Positions 10,691-17,728 of a DNA stretch of 64,000 nucleotides are shown piece after piece; within the stretch, counting starts at the first letter, position 1, and every line of letters starts with the position of its first letter. The notes under the pieces were generated by a model. The model was given only the letters and a program-made list of their open reading frames with translations. It made no database searches and was not told where the DNA came from. The translations under genes were made by a program, and so were the position numbers. This stretch comes from Oceanicoccus sp. (GTDB lineage: Bacteria > Pseudomonadota > Gammaproteobacteria > Pseudomonadales > Dasaniaceae): positions 1-64,000 of the forward strand of contig NZ_JAQWFR010000030.1 in the NCBI RefSeq assembly GCF_029238675.1, written 5' to 3'.

Positions 10691-12112
10691 CTATTCAGGA
10701 AAATTGGCTGTCGAATGGTCGGGCCGGGGTTTGTTGCGCGGGCGGCGACGCTTGATTTTTTTGTCTCTAATATTTTCTGTCATGGCCGCTCGCTGGTCAG
10801 GGCTGCGATTTTGGTAGTCGGTCCACCACTGGCCTAAATTACCGGTTTCTTCACCGGCCTGCTCTCTCAATAGCAGGAAGTCATAGGCCGCACGGAAGCG
10901 ACGGTTCTCCATTAACTGCTCGGCCTTGCGACCGCCGCGACGGGGCAGGCGTAATTGCATTTCCCAAATTTCGCGCATGGGCATACCAAAGCGCTTGGGG
11001 ATAGAGGTGCACTGCTGCTGCATAGACATCACTTCTTGTGCTGCCTGGTGCATGGCAGGCACTGCGGGTACACCTTCTTTGATTAGCTGTTGCTGACGCT
11101 CGTTAACAGCAGGCCATAGCAAGGCCGCATAAATAAAGGCGGGGGTTACCGGCTTACCCTGGCGAATACGCGTATCGGTATTTTTTAAAGCCTGCATCAC
11201 CAGGGTGTGGTAATGATCCTGCTCCAGATAGGGTTGTATTTGCGGAAACAGCGGTTCGAATAAGCCAAACTCTTGCATCAATTCATAAACGTCCACACCC
11301 TTACCCGACATAAAGAGCTTGAGCACTTCATCAAACATTCTTGCGGCGGGTATATCCGCCAGCGACGGTGCCAGGTCATAAATGGGGTCGGCGGTTTCCT
11401 GCTCAATATCGAAATCCAGCTTGGCGGCAAAGCGCACGACCCGCAGCATTCTGACCGGGTCTTCCCGGTAGCGGGTTTCCGGGTCGCCAATCACGCGGAT
11501 AATTTTATCTTCAAGGTCGCGCAGGCCATCGGTGTAATCGTAGATGGCAAAATCCGCGGTGGTGTAATAAAGGGCGTTGATAGTCAGGTCGCGGCGAATG
11601 GCATCCTCTTCTACGGTACCAAAAACGTTGTCCCGCAACAGCATGCCGTTTTTAGAGCGAGCTGATTGCTGGTTCCTGGGACGCTTGCCCTTGATGCTTT
11701 CTTCGGTTTGTTCATGAGTACCGCGAAATGTAGTGACTTCGATAACTTCACGACCAAAGCGCACATGTACTATCTTAAAGCGACGACCAATAATGCGAGA
11801 GCTGCGGAACAGCTTGTTAACTTGCTCCGGGGTCGCATCCGTAGCGATATCAAAGTCCTTGGGGCGCCCACCCAATAATAAATCCCTAACACCACCACCC
11901 ACCAGAAAGCCCTCATAGCCGGCTTTATGCAAGATGCTCATTACTCTTAGGGCAGCTTCACTTATATGCTTGCGGGAAATACTGTGATGATCGCGGGGGA
12001 TAATGTGGGGGTCAATAGAGGCTGGGTCAGTCGGATCAATATCACCGGAAGCACTGCCCCGGCCGAGCACACCTTTGACTCGCTTGATTGCGTTGGAAAA
12101 CAGCTTTGCCAT
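10691..12112 (-). CDS. pcnB: poly(A) polymerase I
   Basis: Adds 3' poly(A) tails to RNA, promoting exosome-like decay; it is also the first gene of the pcnB-folK-dnk-panB-panC run. 473 residues. The nucleotidyltransferase core GGGVRDLLLGGRPKDFDIAT is clear (G-G-x-V-R-D and D-x-D), followed by RRFKIVHVRFG and DAIRRDLTINALYY. The C-terminus is a basic RNA-binding tail (KKIKRRRPRNKPRPD). Its immediate upstream region holds the two CrcZ-like RNA units, so read-through from sigma-54 promoters could reach it. Confidence 0.95.
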   Translation of the reverse strand: MAKLFSNAIKRVKGVLGRGSASGDIDPTDPASIDPHIIPRDHHSISRKHISEAALRVMSILHKAGYEGFLVGGGVRDLLLGGRPKDFDIATDATPEQVNKLFRSSRIIGRRFKIVHVRFGREVIEVTTFRGTHEQTEESIKGKRPRNQQSARSKNGMLLRDNVFGTVEEDAIRRDLTINALYYTTADFAIYDYTDGLRDLEDKIIRVIGDPETRYREDPVRMLRVVRFAAKLDFDIEQETADPIYDLAPSLADIPAARMFDEVLKLFMSGKGVDVYELMQEFGLFEPLFPQIQPYLEQDHYHTLVMQALKNTDTRIRQGKPVTPAFIYAALLWPAVNERQQQLIKEGVPAVPAMHQAAQEVMSMQQQCTSIPKRFGMPMREIWEMQLRLPRRGGRKAEQLMENRRFRAAYDFLLLREQAGEETGNLGQWWTDYQNRSPDQRAAMTENIRDKKIKRRRPRNKPRPDHSTANFPE

Positions 12113-12300: not shown

Positions 12301-12404
12301 GAGCTGCTTAGAGGGAGCTGGGTAATGATGAAGGGAAAACATATGCTTTCCCCCATCCAGGTCTCATATTTTTTATTATTATTTTTGTATTTTTTTATTA
12401 TTGC
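12301..12404 (-). ncRNA. CrcZ-like regulatory RNA, copy 1 (3' end undefined)
   Basis: Predicted Hfq/Crc-sequestering RNA. The 5' end is placed about 12 bases downstream of the sigma-54 -12 element. The transcript would begin with an A-rich leader carrying AATAATAA and AATAATAATAA, which fit the AAnAAnAA catabolite-activity motif. A hairpin follows: GATGGGGGAAA pairs with TTTCCCTTCATC (12327-12357). The segment AGACCTGGATGGGG is shared exactly with copy 2. Location between cbrB and pcnB is the established crcZ position in Pseudomonas. I see no clear terminator; CrcZ of P. aeruginosa is about 400 nucleotides, so the end may lie further towards pcnB. Confidence 0.72.
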
Positions 12405-12414
12405 TCTTGAGCAT

Positions 12415-12430
12415 AGCAGTTATCGTGCCA
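12415..12430 (-). promoter_or_regulatory. sigma-54 promoter of CrcZ-like copy 1
   Basis: Minus strand reads TGGCACGATAACTGCT. The GG of the -24 box and the GC of the -12 box have the canonical spacing of TGGCACG-N4-TTGCW. Only the first T of the TTGC box deviates. Confidence 0.85.
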
Positions 12431-12502
12431 AAAAATAATATCACCACAGAACAATGACTTATGGCTACATCTTTGAATCGACAGTGTGAGCTTTGACCTC
12501 TT

Positions 12503-12551
12503 TGTTACAGATAGCCACGGCAATTGTTACACCACTACCTTATCAGTAACA
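12503..12551 (-). promoter_or_regulatory. CbrB upstream activator site of copy 1
   Basis: TGTTAC (12525-12530), 15 bases, GTAACA (12546-12551) form an inverted repeat. A further TGTTAC half-site sits at 12503-12508. The palindrome centre is about 134 bases upstream of the predicted start site. TGTTAC/GTAACA palindromes are the reported CbrB target type in Pseudomonas. The assignment to CbrB is inference from this and from location. Confidence 0.72.
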
Positions 12552-12700
12552 GTTAAATGACTATTTATAGCTCCTTAAAACCTGTCGCTATCAAATTAGA
12601 ATTTGTGTGAATATTTCGCAATATCGTCAGTAATATAAGAATTATAAATTCAAAAGATAATTAAGGGCACACATTGAAGGAAATAAATTAAGGCAAGTTT

Positions 12701-12808
12701 GTAAGTAAGTTGTGGGGAGGAGGGATAAATTGATGAGGGAAGATAACTCTTCCCCATCCAGGTCTCTTTACTTTTATTATTATTATGATAAATATTATTC
12801 TTATTGTG
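12701..12808 (-). ncRNA. CrcZ-like regulatory RNA, copy 2 (3' end undefined)
   Basis: Second unit, upstream of copy 1 on the same strand. The predicted leader contains AATAAGAATAA and AATAATAATAA (AAnAAnAA motifs). Then comes AGACCTGGATGGGG and a hairpin in which GATGGGGAAGA pairs with TCTTCCCTCATC (12732-12758). The downstream C-rich CCCTCCTCCCC differs from copy 1. The paralogue relation to copy 1 is evident from the order and spacing of every part. The 3' end is unknown and could extend to the activator site of copy 1. Confidence 0.72.
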
Positions 12809-12818
12809 CATATGTAAT

Positions 12819-12834
12819 AGCATGCACCATGCCA
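12819..12834 (-). promoter_or_regulatory. sigma-54 promoter of CrcZ-like copy 2
   Basis: Minus strand reads TGGCATGGTGCATGCT. GG and GC are in exact -24/-12 register. It lies exactly 404 bases from the copy 1 promoter. Confidence 0.83.
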
Positions 12835-12906
12835 ACTTTTTATTTCCTTTAATATCAACAAGTTAGATCTTATAAATGATTAATCAAGGTGCCCTAAACA
12901 AGTAAA

Positions 12907-12955
12907 CGTTACCATTCAACTCGGGTTTTGTTACTAGAACCTATTACAAGTAACG
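12907..12955 (-). promoter_or_regulatory. CbrB upstream activator site of copy 2
   Basis: TGTTAC (12929-12934), 15 bases, GTAACG (12950-12955), plus a half-site CGTTAC at 12907-12912. The three half-sites have the same spacing as in copy 1 (22 bases between the direct ones, 15 inside the palindrome). The site begins only 24 bases from the cbrB stop codon. Confidence 0.7.
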
Positions 12956-12978: not shown

Positions 12979-14400
12979 TTACGAAGCAGACTTGGCGCCT
13001 TTCTTACGGGGGATGCCCAGGCGCTGACGACGCTCCCAGAGGCATTTTCGGCTAACACCGAGTTTGCGAGCCAATTCGGTTTCACTCATTGAGTCCTGAT
13101 GCTCCAGTACAAAGCGCTGGAAATAATCTTCCAGGGACAGGTCATCCTGCTGCGTATCATCACCCAGTGGCTCGGTGGACGTAGCACCGGTGACGGGGGC
13201 AACGATAGGGCGCTTGCTGCGAATCTGTGTCACATTGACCAACTCCAGGTCGATATTGAGCAAGTCGTTTTCTATAACCCCGTTGTCGCCCAGGATAACA
13301 GCACGCTCAATAACATTTTCCAGTTCACGGACATTACCGGGCCAGGTATAAGTGGTAATCGCCTGAATGGCTTTGGGGGAGAAGGTGGCTACCGGCTTAT
13401 TGAGCTCAATACAACGGCGCTCCAAAATACTCTCTGCCAATTCAAGGATATCCTTGCCCCGATCGCGCAATGGCGGCAGCACTAACTGCATAACATTAAT
13501 GCGGTAATACAAATCCGGGCGGAATTGGTTTTCCTGGGCCAGGGTTTTAAGGTCTCTGTGGGTGGCACAGATTAAGCGCACATCAACTTTGCGGGATTCT
13601 ACTGAGCCAATACGGCGGATTTCATCTTCCTGGATAAATCGCAGCAACCGCGCCTGGGCTTCAAGGGGAAGCTCGCCAATTTCATCGAGAAATAAAGTAC
13701 CACCATCCGCAGCTTCAATTAAACCCATACGGTTGGTGTTAGCGCCAGTAAACGCGCCCTTCTCATAGCCGAATAATTCTGATTCGATCAGGGTCTCGGG
13801 AATTGCCGCGCAATTAACACTGATAAAAGGCTGCTCTGTGCGATGACTATAGGCATGGATGGCCTTGGCGACCAACTCTTTACCGGTACCGGTTTCACCA
13901 TGTACCAGCACCGTAGCCTCGGTCGGCGCGGCCTTATTGATATGCTCATACAGTTTAATCATTGACTGGCAGTTACCAATCATGCCGCCCAGATGTGAGT
14001 GCCCACGTTTCGCCGCAGAAGTACGCTGTTCTTTGGGGGTGCTTTGCGGGGAGTGATTGGCAATAATTGCAGCTACGGCATCCAGCATTTCATCGTGGTC
14101 AAAGGGTTTGGCAATATAGTCAACCGCACCACTTTTCATAGAGTCGACCGCTGAGCGCAGGCTGGCATAGCTGGTCATGACCAGGACGGGGACATCACCG
14201 GCGGGCTTAATTAAGTCGGTGCCAGCGGCCCCAGGCAGGCGCAAGTCGCTGATAATTAGATCAAAACTGCTAAGATCAAAGTTATCCAGAGCCTCGTTAA
14301 CCGCCCCGGCTTCACTCACTTCATATTCATGACGCTCTAAGAGTTTTCGCAACGCGCTACGGATCACCGTTTCGTCTTCAACAATTAGAATTTTTTCCAT
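12979..14400 (-). CDS. cbrB: NtrC-family response regulator CbrB
   Basis: Sigma-54 activator and partner of CbrA. 473 residues. Receiver domain at residues 1-115 with the phospho-acceptor D52 and K98. The AAA+ domain has Walker A GETGTGKE (168-175), the sigma-54 contact loop GAFTGA (215-220) and Walker B GGTLFLDEIGEL. A Fis-type helix-turn-helix closes the protein (TELARKLGVSRKCLWERRQR). In Pseudomonas CbrB activates crcZ and catabolic genes when the carbon source is poor. Here the two sigma-54 units directly downstream fit that role. The gene is separated from cbrA by 165 bases. Confidence 0.94.
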   Translation of the reverse strand: MEKILIVEDETVIRSALRKLLERHEYEVSEAGAVNEALDNFDLSSFDLIISDLRLPGAAGTDLIKPAGDVPVLVMTSYASLRSAVDSMKSGAVDYIAKPFDHDEMLDAVAAIIANHSPQSTPKEQRTSAAKRGHSHLGGMIGNCQSMIKLYEHINKAAPTEATVLVHGETGTGKELVAKAIHAYSHRTEQPFISVNCAAIPETLIESELFGYEKGAFTGANTNRMGLIEAADGGTLFLDEIGELPLEAQARLLRFIQEDEIRRIGSVESRKVDVRLICATHRDLKTLAQENQFRPDLYYRINVMQLVLPPLRDRGKDILELAESILERRCIELNKPVATFSPKAIQAITTYTWPGNVRELENVIERAVILGDNGVIENDLLNIDLELVNVTQIRSKRPIVAPVTGATSTEPLGDDTQQDDLSLEDYFQRFVLEHQDSMSETELARKLGVSRKCLWERRQRLGIPRKKGAKSAS

Positions 14401-14565: not shown

Positions 14566-17526
14566 TCAGCCCTGCTGATGATGGTAAAGCCGCAGGGTAA
14601 AACGGGTACCGCCATGCTCTGGATCAGCGGGGCTTTCGACACTGATACTGCCGTTAAGGTCATCAACAATGCTATATACCAGCGACAGGCCAAGCCCCGT
14701 GCCCTCACCCGCTTCTTTGGTGGTAAAGAAAGGGTCAAAGATCTGCTCCTGGTGTTCCTTGCTAATACCGCTGCCGCGATCAGTGACGTTGATATAGACC
14801 TTTTGGTTGCGCAGCTCGGTATCCACAATCACGGCACTCTGCTCAGGGCTGGCGTCCCGAGCATTGCTAAGCAGATTAACAAAAACCTGCAACAAACGCT
14901 GGCTATCAGCAATCGCATAAAGCTCATCATCACAATGGTTTTCAAAACGAACTTGCCTGGCTGCTTTGTTCAGGTGCAATAAATGAATCGCTTCTTCAAC
15001 ACAGGATTTGATATGGACGGGGCCTAATTCATTGTTGGCATTCTCACCACCAGAGTGAGCAAAGTTCACCAGCGTTTGCACAATTTTAGACACTCTGTCG
15101 GTCTGCACTAAAATTTCCCGGCCGGTTTCAAGGCTCTCGGGGTTGTCGGTGTCATAGCGAAGGTTTTGTGCCAGGCAGGCAATACCGGTAACCGGGTTGC
15201 CAATTTCATGGGCCACCCCTGCCGCCAAACGGCCAATTGAAGCCAGGCGTTCGCTGTGCATCAACTCATCTTCCAGCATTTGCACATCAGTGGTGTTCTC
15301 TAGCACGATCACTCGGCCATCCGTCGCCCCCTCTTCAGCACCCACTAAAGTTTTATGTAAATTAAACCAATAACTGCTACCGGCCCCTTCATAATGCTGC
15401 TTATATAAATGGGGCTGGGGCATTTGCAGAAAATCACTCAGCAAGTCACCCCAGGGCTTAGGTAAACTGCGAAGGTTTGAGCCAATCACATCAAAGGTAC
15501 TGATGCCGGTAAATTCCGCAATGGCGTTATTCCACATTAAAATTTCACCGTCTTCACCTAACGAGCAAACCCCAACCGGTAAATTCTGTAAGGTCTGCCG
15601 GTGGTAGCGTCGAAGATTATCCAGGTCCACCGCCAGGCCGGTAAGGTGTGTTTTGTAGTTTTCCAACTGTACTTCTATTAAGTTAATATCTTCGCCGCTA
15701 CTACCATTGCTACTAGTTGCATAGGGTAGTAATTGGTTAACCATATCGTGAGCCACTGAAGGCCCCAACAAACCTGACAGGTTTGCCTCGACGCGATAAC
15801 GCAAACGTCGCAGGGCAAAGGGCCGACTCTCATCATCAGGCATCTGCATATCATGCAGGGCCCGGTCGACTTCGCGCTGGGCAGTACGGGCACCTAAAGC
15901 GGTGGCCAACTGGTCTTTCATCTGCTCTGGATTTTGCACGCTGAGCAGGCGCCGCATTGGGCGGTTAAGGTCATCGGTGGCGCAGACTTCTGCGGCGTTT
16001 TTTTCTGCCTCGGAGGTTGAGGTCAGTAGCGATACCACAACGAACACCAGCATATTCATACCCAGGGAAACAATGGTGGCGGCAGTCCATAGGTCGTCAT
16101 AGACCAGGTTGAAATATAATTTACCAATAAAGGCAGGATCAAAGGTGGTGATAATGGGTAGCAGCAAGGTTACAAACCAAATCACGAAACCGGTAATCAA
16201 ACCGGCGATAAACCCATTGCGATTAGCCCCCTGCCAATAGAGTGCGGCCAGGACGCCAGGGAAAAATTGCAAGGTGGCAATAAACGCCGCCAAACCGAGA
16301 CTGGACAAAGCTTCACGCCCGGCAATAAAACGGTAAAAGCCATAGCCCGTTAAAATAATCAATACGATCAGTATGCGGCGTATCCATAATAACCAGCGGT
16401 AGATATCGCGGTCTGTGCTGGGACGGTAAACCGGTAAAATCAGGTGCTTTAAACACATAGAGGCCAGTGCCAGGGTGGTGACTATCATCGCGCCACTGGC
16501 AGCTGACAGCCCACCGATATAAACCAGGATTGCCAAAGCGGATGACTCCAATTCAACACCGATAGCCAAGGTAAAGTATTCCGGCGGAATCACGGTTTCC
16601 AATTTAAAACCGGCCCATAAAATGGGCAACACCGGCAAACTCATTAGCATTAAAAATAAGGGCACCCCCCAGCTAGCTATCTGCATAGCTTTGACGTTGG
16701 GGTTTTCGGCAAAAATCATATGAAATAAATGTGGCATGACCACAGCAGCTGAGAAAAAAATCAGCAAAAGCGCACGGGAAGAATCCTCACGCATTGGAAA
16801 GTTAAGCAATGAAACAATTTGCGGGTTAGCCGTCAGCCACCGGTCCATTCCTTCAAAACCACCAAACACCTGGTACACCGCAGCAACACCAACCACCAAC
16901 ATAGCGATTAATTTAATCACTGATTCAAAAGCAATGGCTGCCACTAAACCATTATGACGTTCATGGGCGGTCAGGTGTCTGGAACCAAACGAAATGGCAA
17001 AAAGACAAATAGCCAGACAAAAAACAAACGCCAGCATATTGTGCCGGGTTTCCTGGGTAAACAGTTCTTCGCCATTGGAGCTGATTGTGGTGAGGATATG
17101 CAGGCTATCGGTTACCGCCTGTATTTGTAATGCCAATAATGGCCAGACCGCCAACACCATACACAAGGTAATTAATGACCCTGCCCACTGGGTACGGTAG
17201 CGAAAAGTGAGCACATCAGCCAGGGAGCTATGTAAGTAGGTTCTGGCAATACGCAAGATGGGTAACAGCAATAGCGGCGCAAAAATAAACGTGCCGGCCA
17301 CACCCAAATAATAAGAAAGAAAACCATAGCCATATTCATGGGCCAAGCCCACCACACCGTAGACAGCCCAGGCACTGGCAAACACGCCCAGCGATAACAC
17401 ATAGGTTAAGGGATGACGAATGAGCTGTTCAGGAATCAAGCCGCGATCTGCAATATGGGCAATACCAAAGAGCAGCAGTAAGTATCCGAGGCCAATCAGG
17501 AATAACTGGGATAACTCAAAGCTCAT
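14566..17526 (-). CDS. cbrA: sensor histidine kinase CbrA with SLC5-type transporter domain
   Basis: 986 residues. The first 520 or so form a sodium/solute-symporter-like membrane domain with more than ten hydrophobic segments. A linker (STAC-like) follows, then a PAS domain at about 640-755, and the HisKA box GVAHEIGNPVTG with its histidine near residue 770. The HATPase boxes are VNLLSNARDA, DRGSGI, DPFFTTK and GTGLGLSLVYSI. I chose the ATG at 17526 because the protein then begins MSFELSQLFLIGLGYLLLL, directly hydrophobic; the frame stays open 25 codons further up, inside cbrX. An AAGGA lies about 12 bases upstream. The start overlaps the end of cbrX by 11 bases, suggesting translational coupling. 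Confidence 0.94.
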   Translation of the reverse strand: MSFELSQLFLIGLGYLLLLFGIAHIADRGLIPEQLIRHPLTYVLSLGVFASAWAVYGVVGLAHEYGYGFLSYYLGVAGTFIFAPLLLLPILRIARTYLHSSLADVLTFRYRTQWAGSLITLCMVLAVWPLLALQIQAVTDSLHILTTISSNGEELFTQETRHNMLAFVFCLAICLFAISFGSRHLTAHERHNGLVAAIAFESVIKLIAMLVVGVAAVYQVFGGFEGMDRWLTANPQIVSLLNFPMREDSSRALLLIFFSAAVVMPHLFHMIFAENPNVKAMQIASWGVPLFLMLMSLPVLPILWAGFKLETVIPPEYFTLAIGVELESSALAILVYIGGLSAASGAMIVTTLALASMCLKHLILPVYRPSTDRDIYRWLLWIRRILIVLIILTGYGFYRFIAGREALSSLGLAAFIATLQFFPGVLAALYWQGANRNGFIAGLITGFVIWFVTLLLPIITTFDPAFIGKLYFNLVYDDLWTAATIVSLGMNMLVFVVVSLLTSTSEAEKNAAEVCATDDLNRPMRRLLSVQNPEQMKDQLATALGARTAQREVDRALHDMQMPDDESRPFALRRLRYRVEANLSGLLGPSVAHDMVNQLLPYATSSNGSSGEDINLIEVQLENYKTHLTGLAVDLDNLRRYHRQTLQNLPVGVCSLGEDGEILMWNNAIAEFTGISTFDVIGSNLRSLPKPWGDLLSDFLQMPQPHLYKQHYEGAGSSYWFNLHKTLVGAEEGATDGRVIVLENTTDVQMLEDELMHSERLASIGRLAAGVAHEIGNPVTGIACLAQNLRYDTDNPESLETGREILVQTDRVSKIVQTLVNFAHSGGENANNELGPVHIKSCVEEAIHLLHLNKAARQVRFENHCDDELYAIADSQRLLQVFVNLLSNARDASPEQSAVIVDTELRNQKVYINVTDRGSGISKEHQEQIFDPFFTTKEAGEGTGLGLSLVYSIVDDLNGSISVESPADPEHGGTRFTLRLYHHQQG

Positions 17527-17728
17527 TGGAGGACTTTTCCTTTTCGTTAATGGCGTTTTGACGGCGCTCGTAACGGCGGATGCTCCACCAGACAAATACA
17601 ATGGTGATTAACCATAATTGATAGGGGCGATACCAAGCGGTTCCCCCTTGCGTTACCCACTCTTGAATCGATGGGGAGAACACAAAAATAACCAGCAGTA
17701 ATAATAATAAGCTAGGGCTAATATGCAT
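17516..17728 (-). CDS. cbrX: CbrX-like small membrane protein
   Basis: 70 residues with two hydrophobic segments: LLLLLLVIFVF at about 7-17 and LWLITIVFVWW at about 38-48. The tail is short, charged and Arg/Glu rich. Its stop codon lies inside the cbrA start region (11-base overlap). Pseudomonads carry a similar small gene, cbrX, overlapping cbrA and needed for its translation. Identification rests on position, size and topology rather than on clear sequence motifs. Confidence 0.75.
   Translation of the reverse strand: MHISPSLLLLLLVIFVFSPSIQEWVTQGGTAWYRPYQLWLITIVFVWWSIRRYERRQNAINEKEKSSNEL

Follow-up and report, generated by a model that had tools for sequence, protein, structure and literature searches.

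A tandem pair of predicted short CrcZ-type RNA genes between cbrB and pcnB in Oceanicoccus sp., with related units across the order

The small RNA CrcZ of Pseudomonas aeruginosa is 407 nt long. Of its six A-rich stretches, three lie in the first 151 nt, a segment that already binds Hfq according to the available portion of PMC4063720. For Pseudomonas putida, excerpts of PMC6296734 describe three CbrB subsites, F1, R1 and R2, at crcZ, crcY and PP2810, together with a dependence on IHF, and spell out a GG-N10-GC promoter for PP2810. CbrA of Pseudomonas and Azotobacter is covered in PMC7918813 (excerpted text), and a 2022 review names, in the excerpt available, these two genera as the exclusive hosts of CbrAB/crcZ and treats the system as unique to Pseudomonadaceae (PMC8871633). 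In the accessible text of a paper on Acinetobacter Crc, crcZ is named in the references only (PMC8312277), and among the matches listed for the open-licence literature no title concerns tandem crcZ or crcZ outside Pseudomonas and Azotobacter. Transcripts of cbrA/cbrB from a mesopelagic Atlantic community, for which the excerpt gives no taxon, provide an earlier hint of cbrAB beyond cultured pseudomonads (PMC5073097).

We analysed a stretch of 64,000 nucleotides from Oceanicoccus sp., referred to as the window, that lies within contig 4 of a 2.32-Mb assembly (30 contigs, 92.69% complete). The minus strand carries, in this order, gluQRS, a cbrA-like gene, cbrB, an intergenic region, pcnB and folK. 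Between cbrB and pcnB we find two complete minus-strand units. Each consists of an enhancer and a sigma-54 promoter, followed by an A-rich leader and a GAGACCTGGATGGGG-headed hairpin. The features are as follows, with the basis of each call in brackets:

14566–17601, minus strand: cbrA-like sensor kinase with PAS, HisKA and HATPase domains (Pfam)
12979–14400, minus strand: cbrB, response regulator and sigma-54 activator (Pfam; CbrB matches in order genomes)
12908–12954, minus strand: unit 1 CbrB-type enhancer with F1 GTTAC, R1 GTAAC and R2 GTAAC (sequence pattern)
12853–12865, minus strand: unit 1 IHF-like site TAACTTGTTGATA, 0 mismatches to the consensus YAANNNNTTGATW (sequence pattern)
12819–12834, minus strand, read 12834–12819: unit 1 sigma-54 promoter TGGCATGGTGCATGCT (sequence pattern)
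near 12808, minus strand: unit 1 predicted start (promoter spacing)
12767–12808, minus strand: unit 1 A-rich leader with 4 AAnAAnAA starts (motif count)
12731–12766, minus strand: unit 1 hairpin element GAGACCTGGATGGGG...TCATC, probable RNA 3′ end (sequence, fold)
12504–12550, minus strand: unit 2 CbrB-type enhancer with F1, R1 and R2 (sequence pattern)
12415–12430, minus strand, read 12430–12415: unit 2 sigma-54 promoter TGGCACGATAACTGCT (sequence pattern)
near 12404, minus strand: unit 2 predicted start (promoter spacing)
12366–12404, minus strand: unit 2 A-rich leader with 6 AAnAAnAA starts (motif count)
12327–12365, minus strand: unit 2 hairpin element GAGACCTGGATGGGGG...TTCATC, probable RNA 3′ end (sequence, fold)
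10691–12112, minus strand: pcnB, poly(A) polymerase (Pfam)

For the cbrA-like kinase, Pfam lists no SSS transporter domain at E ≤ 0.001. The sigma-54 sites of the two units are offset by 404 bases, as are the half-site pairs GTTAC-N15-GTAAC that start at 12954 and 12550, and the hairpin heads AGACCTGGATGGGG at 12765–12752 and 12364–12351 (minus strand) are offset by 401 bases. The initial annotation had described two minus-strand units with activator sites, sigma-54 promoter, AAnAAnAA leader and hairpin, and all of these are found where it placed them; the 404-base offsets that it gave for promoters and activator sites are likewise confirmed. It had called the activator site a palindrome: the half-site pairs are present, but the term is loose, as the CbrB subsites F1, R1 and R2 are termed non-palindromic in P. 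putida in the excerpts of PMC6296734. A third half-site, GTAAC, which had been overlooked, follows N17 beyond the pair in each unit and completes the array GTTAC-N15-GTAAC-N17-GTAAC. The IHF-like site of unit 1 is also absent from the earlier description. An ungapped repeat of 38 nt between the units is 84% identical. A coding origin of the units appears unlikely, the open reading frames that overlap the intergenic region having at most 78 codons.

This anatomy agrees with the layout of CbrB targets in P. putida as far as the excerpts of PMC6296734 describe it. As expected of CrcZ-type genes, both units lie between cbrB and pcnB, carry F1/R1/R2 subsites and, as sequence, a GG-N10-GC sigma-54 promoter, and contain A-rich AAnAAnAA (A-R-N) repeats; together with a terminal hairpin, these are the points of likeness to CrcZ of Pseudomonas. 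CrcY and CrcX of Pseudomonas and Azotobacter offer a further likeness, each being an additional CbrB-driven RNA of the same kind, but they lie elsewhere in the genome, in contrast to the adjacent second copy found here. CrcZ of Pseudomonas also differs from the window in that its 407 nt (PMC4063720, available portion) compare with a predicted 80–90 nt for each RNA here, that its 3′ hairpin is another one, and that the two units of the window stand side by side and both score under the Rfam cut-off. At the gathering threshold, Rfam gives no match in the window; at a lax threshold, the CrcZ model (RF01675) scores 26.6 bits on unit 2 and 18.2 bits on unit 1 against a cut-off of 95. The CrcZ-type identity proposed earlier is right in kind, with both scores short of the Rfam cut-off. 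Among 20 loci scanned with Rfam, the five of family code f21 score 307–346 bits as CrcZ, and f21 is taken as Pseudomonadaceae for this reason; the other 15 remain under the cut-off. The head GACCTGGRTG is missing from 5/5 f21 loci, unlike the window units. Rfam RF01679 (‘P36 sRNA’) matches the CbrB enhancer upstream of crcZ in 4/5 f21 loci scanned (L139, 127–187; L141, 121–181; L143, 1597–1659, minus strand; L156, 164–224) and weakly on the unit 1 enhancer (window 12899–12953, minus strand; 21 bits, cut-off 36); what the model describes as an RNA may be a regulatory site in the DNA.

The best explanation, which we consider very probable, is that the interval holds two tandem genes for short (~80–90 nt) CbrB/sigma-54-driven CrcZ-type RNAs that titrate Hfq. 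From the sequence, we infer the following course of transcription, RNA ends, binding by CbrB, IHF, Hfq and Crc, and physiological role: (i) under carbon limitation, CbrB would bind the F1/R1/R2 array of each unit, and IHF, with a clear site in unit 1 only, would help to loop the DNA; (ii) sigma-54 polymerase would start near 12808 and 12404; (iii) the A-R-N repeats of each RNA would engage Hfq, together with a Crc-like partner, at its distal face; (iv) Hfq titration would free the A-rich ribosome sites of catabolic mRNAs; and (v) the hairpin would make or protect the RNA 3′ end. A whole promoter–RNA unit would have been duplicated when the family arose or earlier, giving rise to the second unit, and selection would have kept both.

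The genome encodes one rpoN and two hfq, all over their cut-offs, and two ExoIII-family proteins. For the ExoIII-family protein on contig 24, Crc is the best solved relative (219 bits vs 205 for the next family), and the protein reads QNL, NWN and SSH where the other one keeps QET, DWN and SDH, residues that we take to be catalytic. Identity to Pseudomonas Crc is 39% for the contig 24 protein and 46% for the other, and the former is a weak candidate for Crc. Two hfq copies are present in G000, G037 and G005 and one in G001, G002 and G008, with two RNA units in all six genomes.

With 14–20 bases permitted in its second gap, the three-half-site array has exactly two occurrences in the 2.32-Mb assembly. 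Both are at cbrB–pcnB, and the reversed-pattern control gives 0. This exact pattern yields no third copy in the 92.69% complete assembly, and the genome contains no further exact hairpin head, the other 17 matches carrying 1–2 mismatches. In 14 further genomes, both places at the locus are matched in 7/7 family genomes, with one extra match elsewhere in each of G002 and G004 and two reversed-control matches each in G001 and G002. The five f21 genomes give one match apiece and G063 gives none; G109 has two matches, both away from its units. Exact spacing therefore marks some families, not all, and the single match per f21 genome means that the pattern is blind to dispersed, diverged copies, also in the window genome.

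We further applied a detector that calls a unit where a sigma-54 match is preceded, 60–190 bases upstream, by at least two half-sites and followed by at least two AAnAAnAA starts; its rules were fixed after viewing the window and loci L002–L030, and later loci were unseen. On both strands of the window it reports these two places only, and on first-order shuffles of the intergenic region it fired in 1 of 20,000 cases and never twice. On the 75 contigs of the genome collection that carry the head pattern GAGACCTGGRTGGGGRARA (1.15 Mb, both strands counted), it reports 57 places, 56 of them in the cbrB–pcnB interval; the 57th belongs to L107, a locus read without its cbrB, and is the second unit there. 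Compared with shuffles, the hairpins alone fold better than most (z −2.55 and −2.48), and the whole leader-plus-hairpin stretches are not outstanding (z −1.19 and −1.59).

Across 108 distinct hairpins, pairing of the stem is kept through changes, with one position reading A-T in 88 and G-C in 16, as tabulated from individual folds, which favour pairing and were used because MAFFT left the 3′ strands of hairpins with different stem length unaligned. A role of the head as a CsrA/RsmA site is not favoured, because GGG replaces the GGA of the head in some loci, those of Zhongshania and Spongiibacter among them. In family members, the copy 1 sequence is GGGGAAGAG-NN-ATCTTCC, and most copy 2 sequences are GGGGGAAAAC-N3/4-GTTTTCCC. 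This difference would suit a second RNA that is a differentiated regulator with a distinct hairpin, and maybe with other partners or timing, and not an extra dose. We regard this as rather unlikely, as the head, the enhancer spacing and the kind of leader are common to both copies and the stem differences largely keep pairing. Equally doubtful is a broader proposal in which the head GAGACCUGGRUGGGG and the hairpin would form a second functional site, making the RNAs bifunctional, tandem copies (2–4) would have evolved repeatedly to set Hfq-titration capacity, and the two copies of the family would have specialised.

Matches to the IHF consensus YAANNNNTTGATW within one mismatch are found in the enhancer–promoter gap of 12/16 family units (1.3 expected from shuffles) and in 94/142 surveyed units (12.1 expected; 21/142 in the opposite orientation), the survey omitting L039 and named contigs. 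Between enhancer and promoter of unit 2 of the window, an IHF-like site within one mismatch is absent.

Both units are present in 9/9 loci read of the window’s GTDB family (8 species). We selected 24 loci, with 35 units in total, for a tree in which all nine second copies, eight from f1 loci and one from HTCC2143, form one clade with support of 99/98. These two observations rule out a recent or strain-specific duplication; on this comparison, the event dates back at least to the origin of the family and is shared beyond the window genome. A FastTree run groups copy 1 with the single-copy units of Zhongshania and Spongiibacter, which would suggest a duplication older than the family; in a careful tree, a family-only origin (p-AU 0.322) and a grouping of copy 1 with f24 (p-AU 0.408) both escape rejection. 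Identities in four genome pairs are 88–100% for hairpins, 70–95% for promoters, 52–92% for enhancers, 62–89% for leaders, 39–71% for the enhancer–promoter gap and 36–55% for the spacer between the units, so that enhancer, gap and leader are conserved less clearly than promoter and hairpin. The F1–R1–R2 spacing is 20 and 22 nt, start to start, in 18/18 copies from nine genomes (eight of the family and HTCC2143). Local duplication with retention of both copies, as put forward in the initial annotation, is borne out by the family loci, the clade and a conservation of promoter and hairpin above that of the spacer; to this are added an age of at least that of the family and an occurrence beyond this genome. 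We infer that the CrcZ-type pair is retained as functional units. It is very unlikely that one unit only makes a working RNA while its neighbour is in decay or serves as a spare enhancer. The aligned parts of the two window copies share only 55% identity and unit 2 is without a good IHF-like site, which would agree with decay, but both units recur in 9/9 family loci read, each with a conserved promoter and hairpin, and nine second copies form one clade.

In the 108 distinct hairpins, drawn from many genomes, the 12 bases beyond the stem are 48% U and 8% G, and the 70 bases past the hairpins of eight family loci are 31–34% C and 10–11% G vs 22% and 16% regionally; in the window, no run of U follows either hairpin. 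A U-rich/C-rich 3′ flank of this kind could reflect either an imperfect intrinsic terminator or Rho-dependent termination followed by trimming. That the sigma-54 promoters chiefly drive pcnB by read-through, with the A-rich stretch and the hairpin as leader elements of the pcnB mRNA, agrees with the position of the units upstream of pcnB in the same direction and with the missing run of U, but is highly improbable, given that the equal layout in f21 scores as CrcZ RNA, that the bases past the stem are like those of an imperfect terminator and that unit 1 would need read-through of unit 2.

To place the tandem CrcZ-type units in the order, we searched for CbrB in 37 kin genomes, 10 family genomes and 174 order genomes. 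Nine of the 10 family genomes matched, the exception being G003 (64% complete), and 147/174 order genomes matched at E ≤ 1e-105, leaving 27 without a match. These searches gave 148 loci in 44 family codes; G171, G083 and G092, which belong to the 147, were left out as their cbrB lies at a contig end. The detector reports no unit in 30 loci, one in 95, two in 20 and three in 3, and hence at least one unit in 118/148 cbrB loci and 37/44 family codes; for 12 of the 30 unit-less loci, no pcnB lies within the stretch read. On longer stretches (13 loci), G109 has four units, G167 and G063 three, G091 two and G153 one, and the three units of G178 and G135 are unchanged. At least two units occur in eight codes: f1 (9/9 loci), f6, f12, f14, f30, f38, f39 (5/5) and f46. 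The detector found no unit in f8, f10, f18, f27, f28, f43 and f44, the f28 contig ending at cbrB. A-rich runs are present in f27 (L225, L231; here also a sigma-54-like site) and f44 (L214, L212), where the usual half-site array is absent; these loci possibly carry diverged CrcZ-type RNAs, and the detector may miss such forms.

Units of the same locus are 38–56% identical in the seven loci compared, except for units 3 and 4 of G109 at 94%, and an identity of 38–45% does not by itself prove descent of units from one another. The f39 locus of G109 (L245) has four tandem units at 321, 840, 1320 and 1857, and the identity of the last two marks a recent duplication. In f6, a 316-codon open stretch lies between the two units of G091 (L251, about 600–1850), which is therefore not a clean tandem.

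Of the 75 contigs with the head pattern, 55 have cbrB and/or pcnB at most 2,600 bases away on the same strand and show 1–10 AAnAAnAA starts over the 70 bases that precede the head; for the remaining 20, the number of starts is 0 or 1. Two head matches are found in six contigs (Dasania, Oceanicoccus, HTCC2143 and three other metagenome bins), five of which have two promoters; the sixth, L107, is truncated ahead of its first promoter. In Zhongshania and Spongiibacter, the contigs carry a single module each. A-rich-plus-hairpin modules occur in duplicate in 23/27 contigs labelled Halieaceae, the distance between them ranging from 93 to 679 bases and mostly being ~200; one promoter only was found in 21 of these contigs, and none in the two that are cut. 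One sigma-54 promoter with two modules, as in L082, L135 and L105, represents a different way of doubling the RNA. A contig labelled Verrucomicrobiaceae (L086, JAQGNY010000019.1) has a cbrB–pcnB locus whose hairpins are both the same as those of L040 (G038) of this order, and is probably mislabelled or misbinned.

As judged from these loci, the larger result is that such units are widespread in the order and have repeatedly expanded in tandem, and cbrB loci with units across the order contradict the Pseudomonadaceae-only claim in the review excerpt (PMC8871633). The cbrB–crcZ arrangement would extend beyond Pseudomonadaceae and, as a short CrcZ-type form that escapes the Rfam model, would reach most of the sampled family codes of the order, and copy number would change by repeating the whole promoter–RNA unit. 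The natural series of one to four units makes the question of dosage vs specialisation of Hfq-sponge RNAs directly testable.
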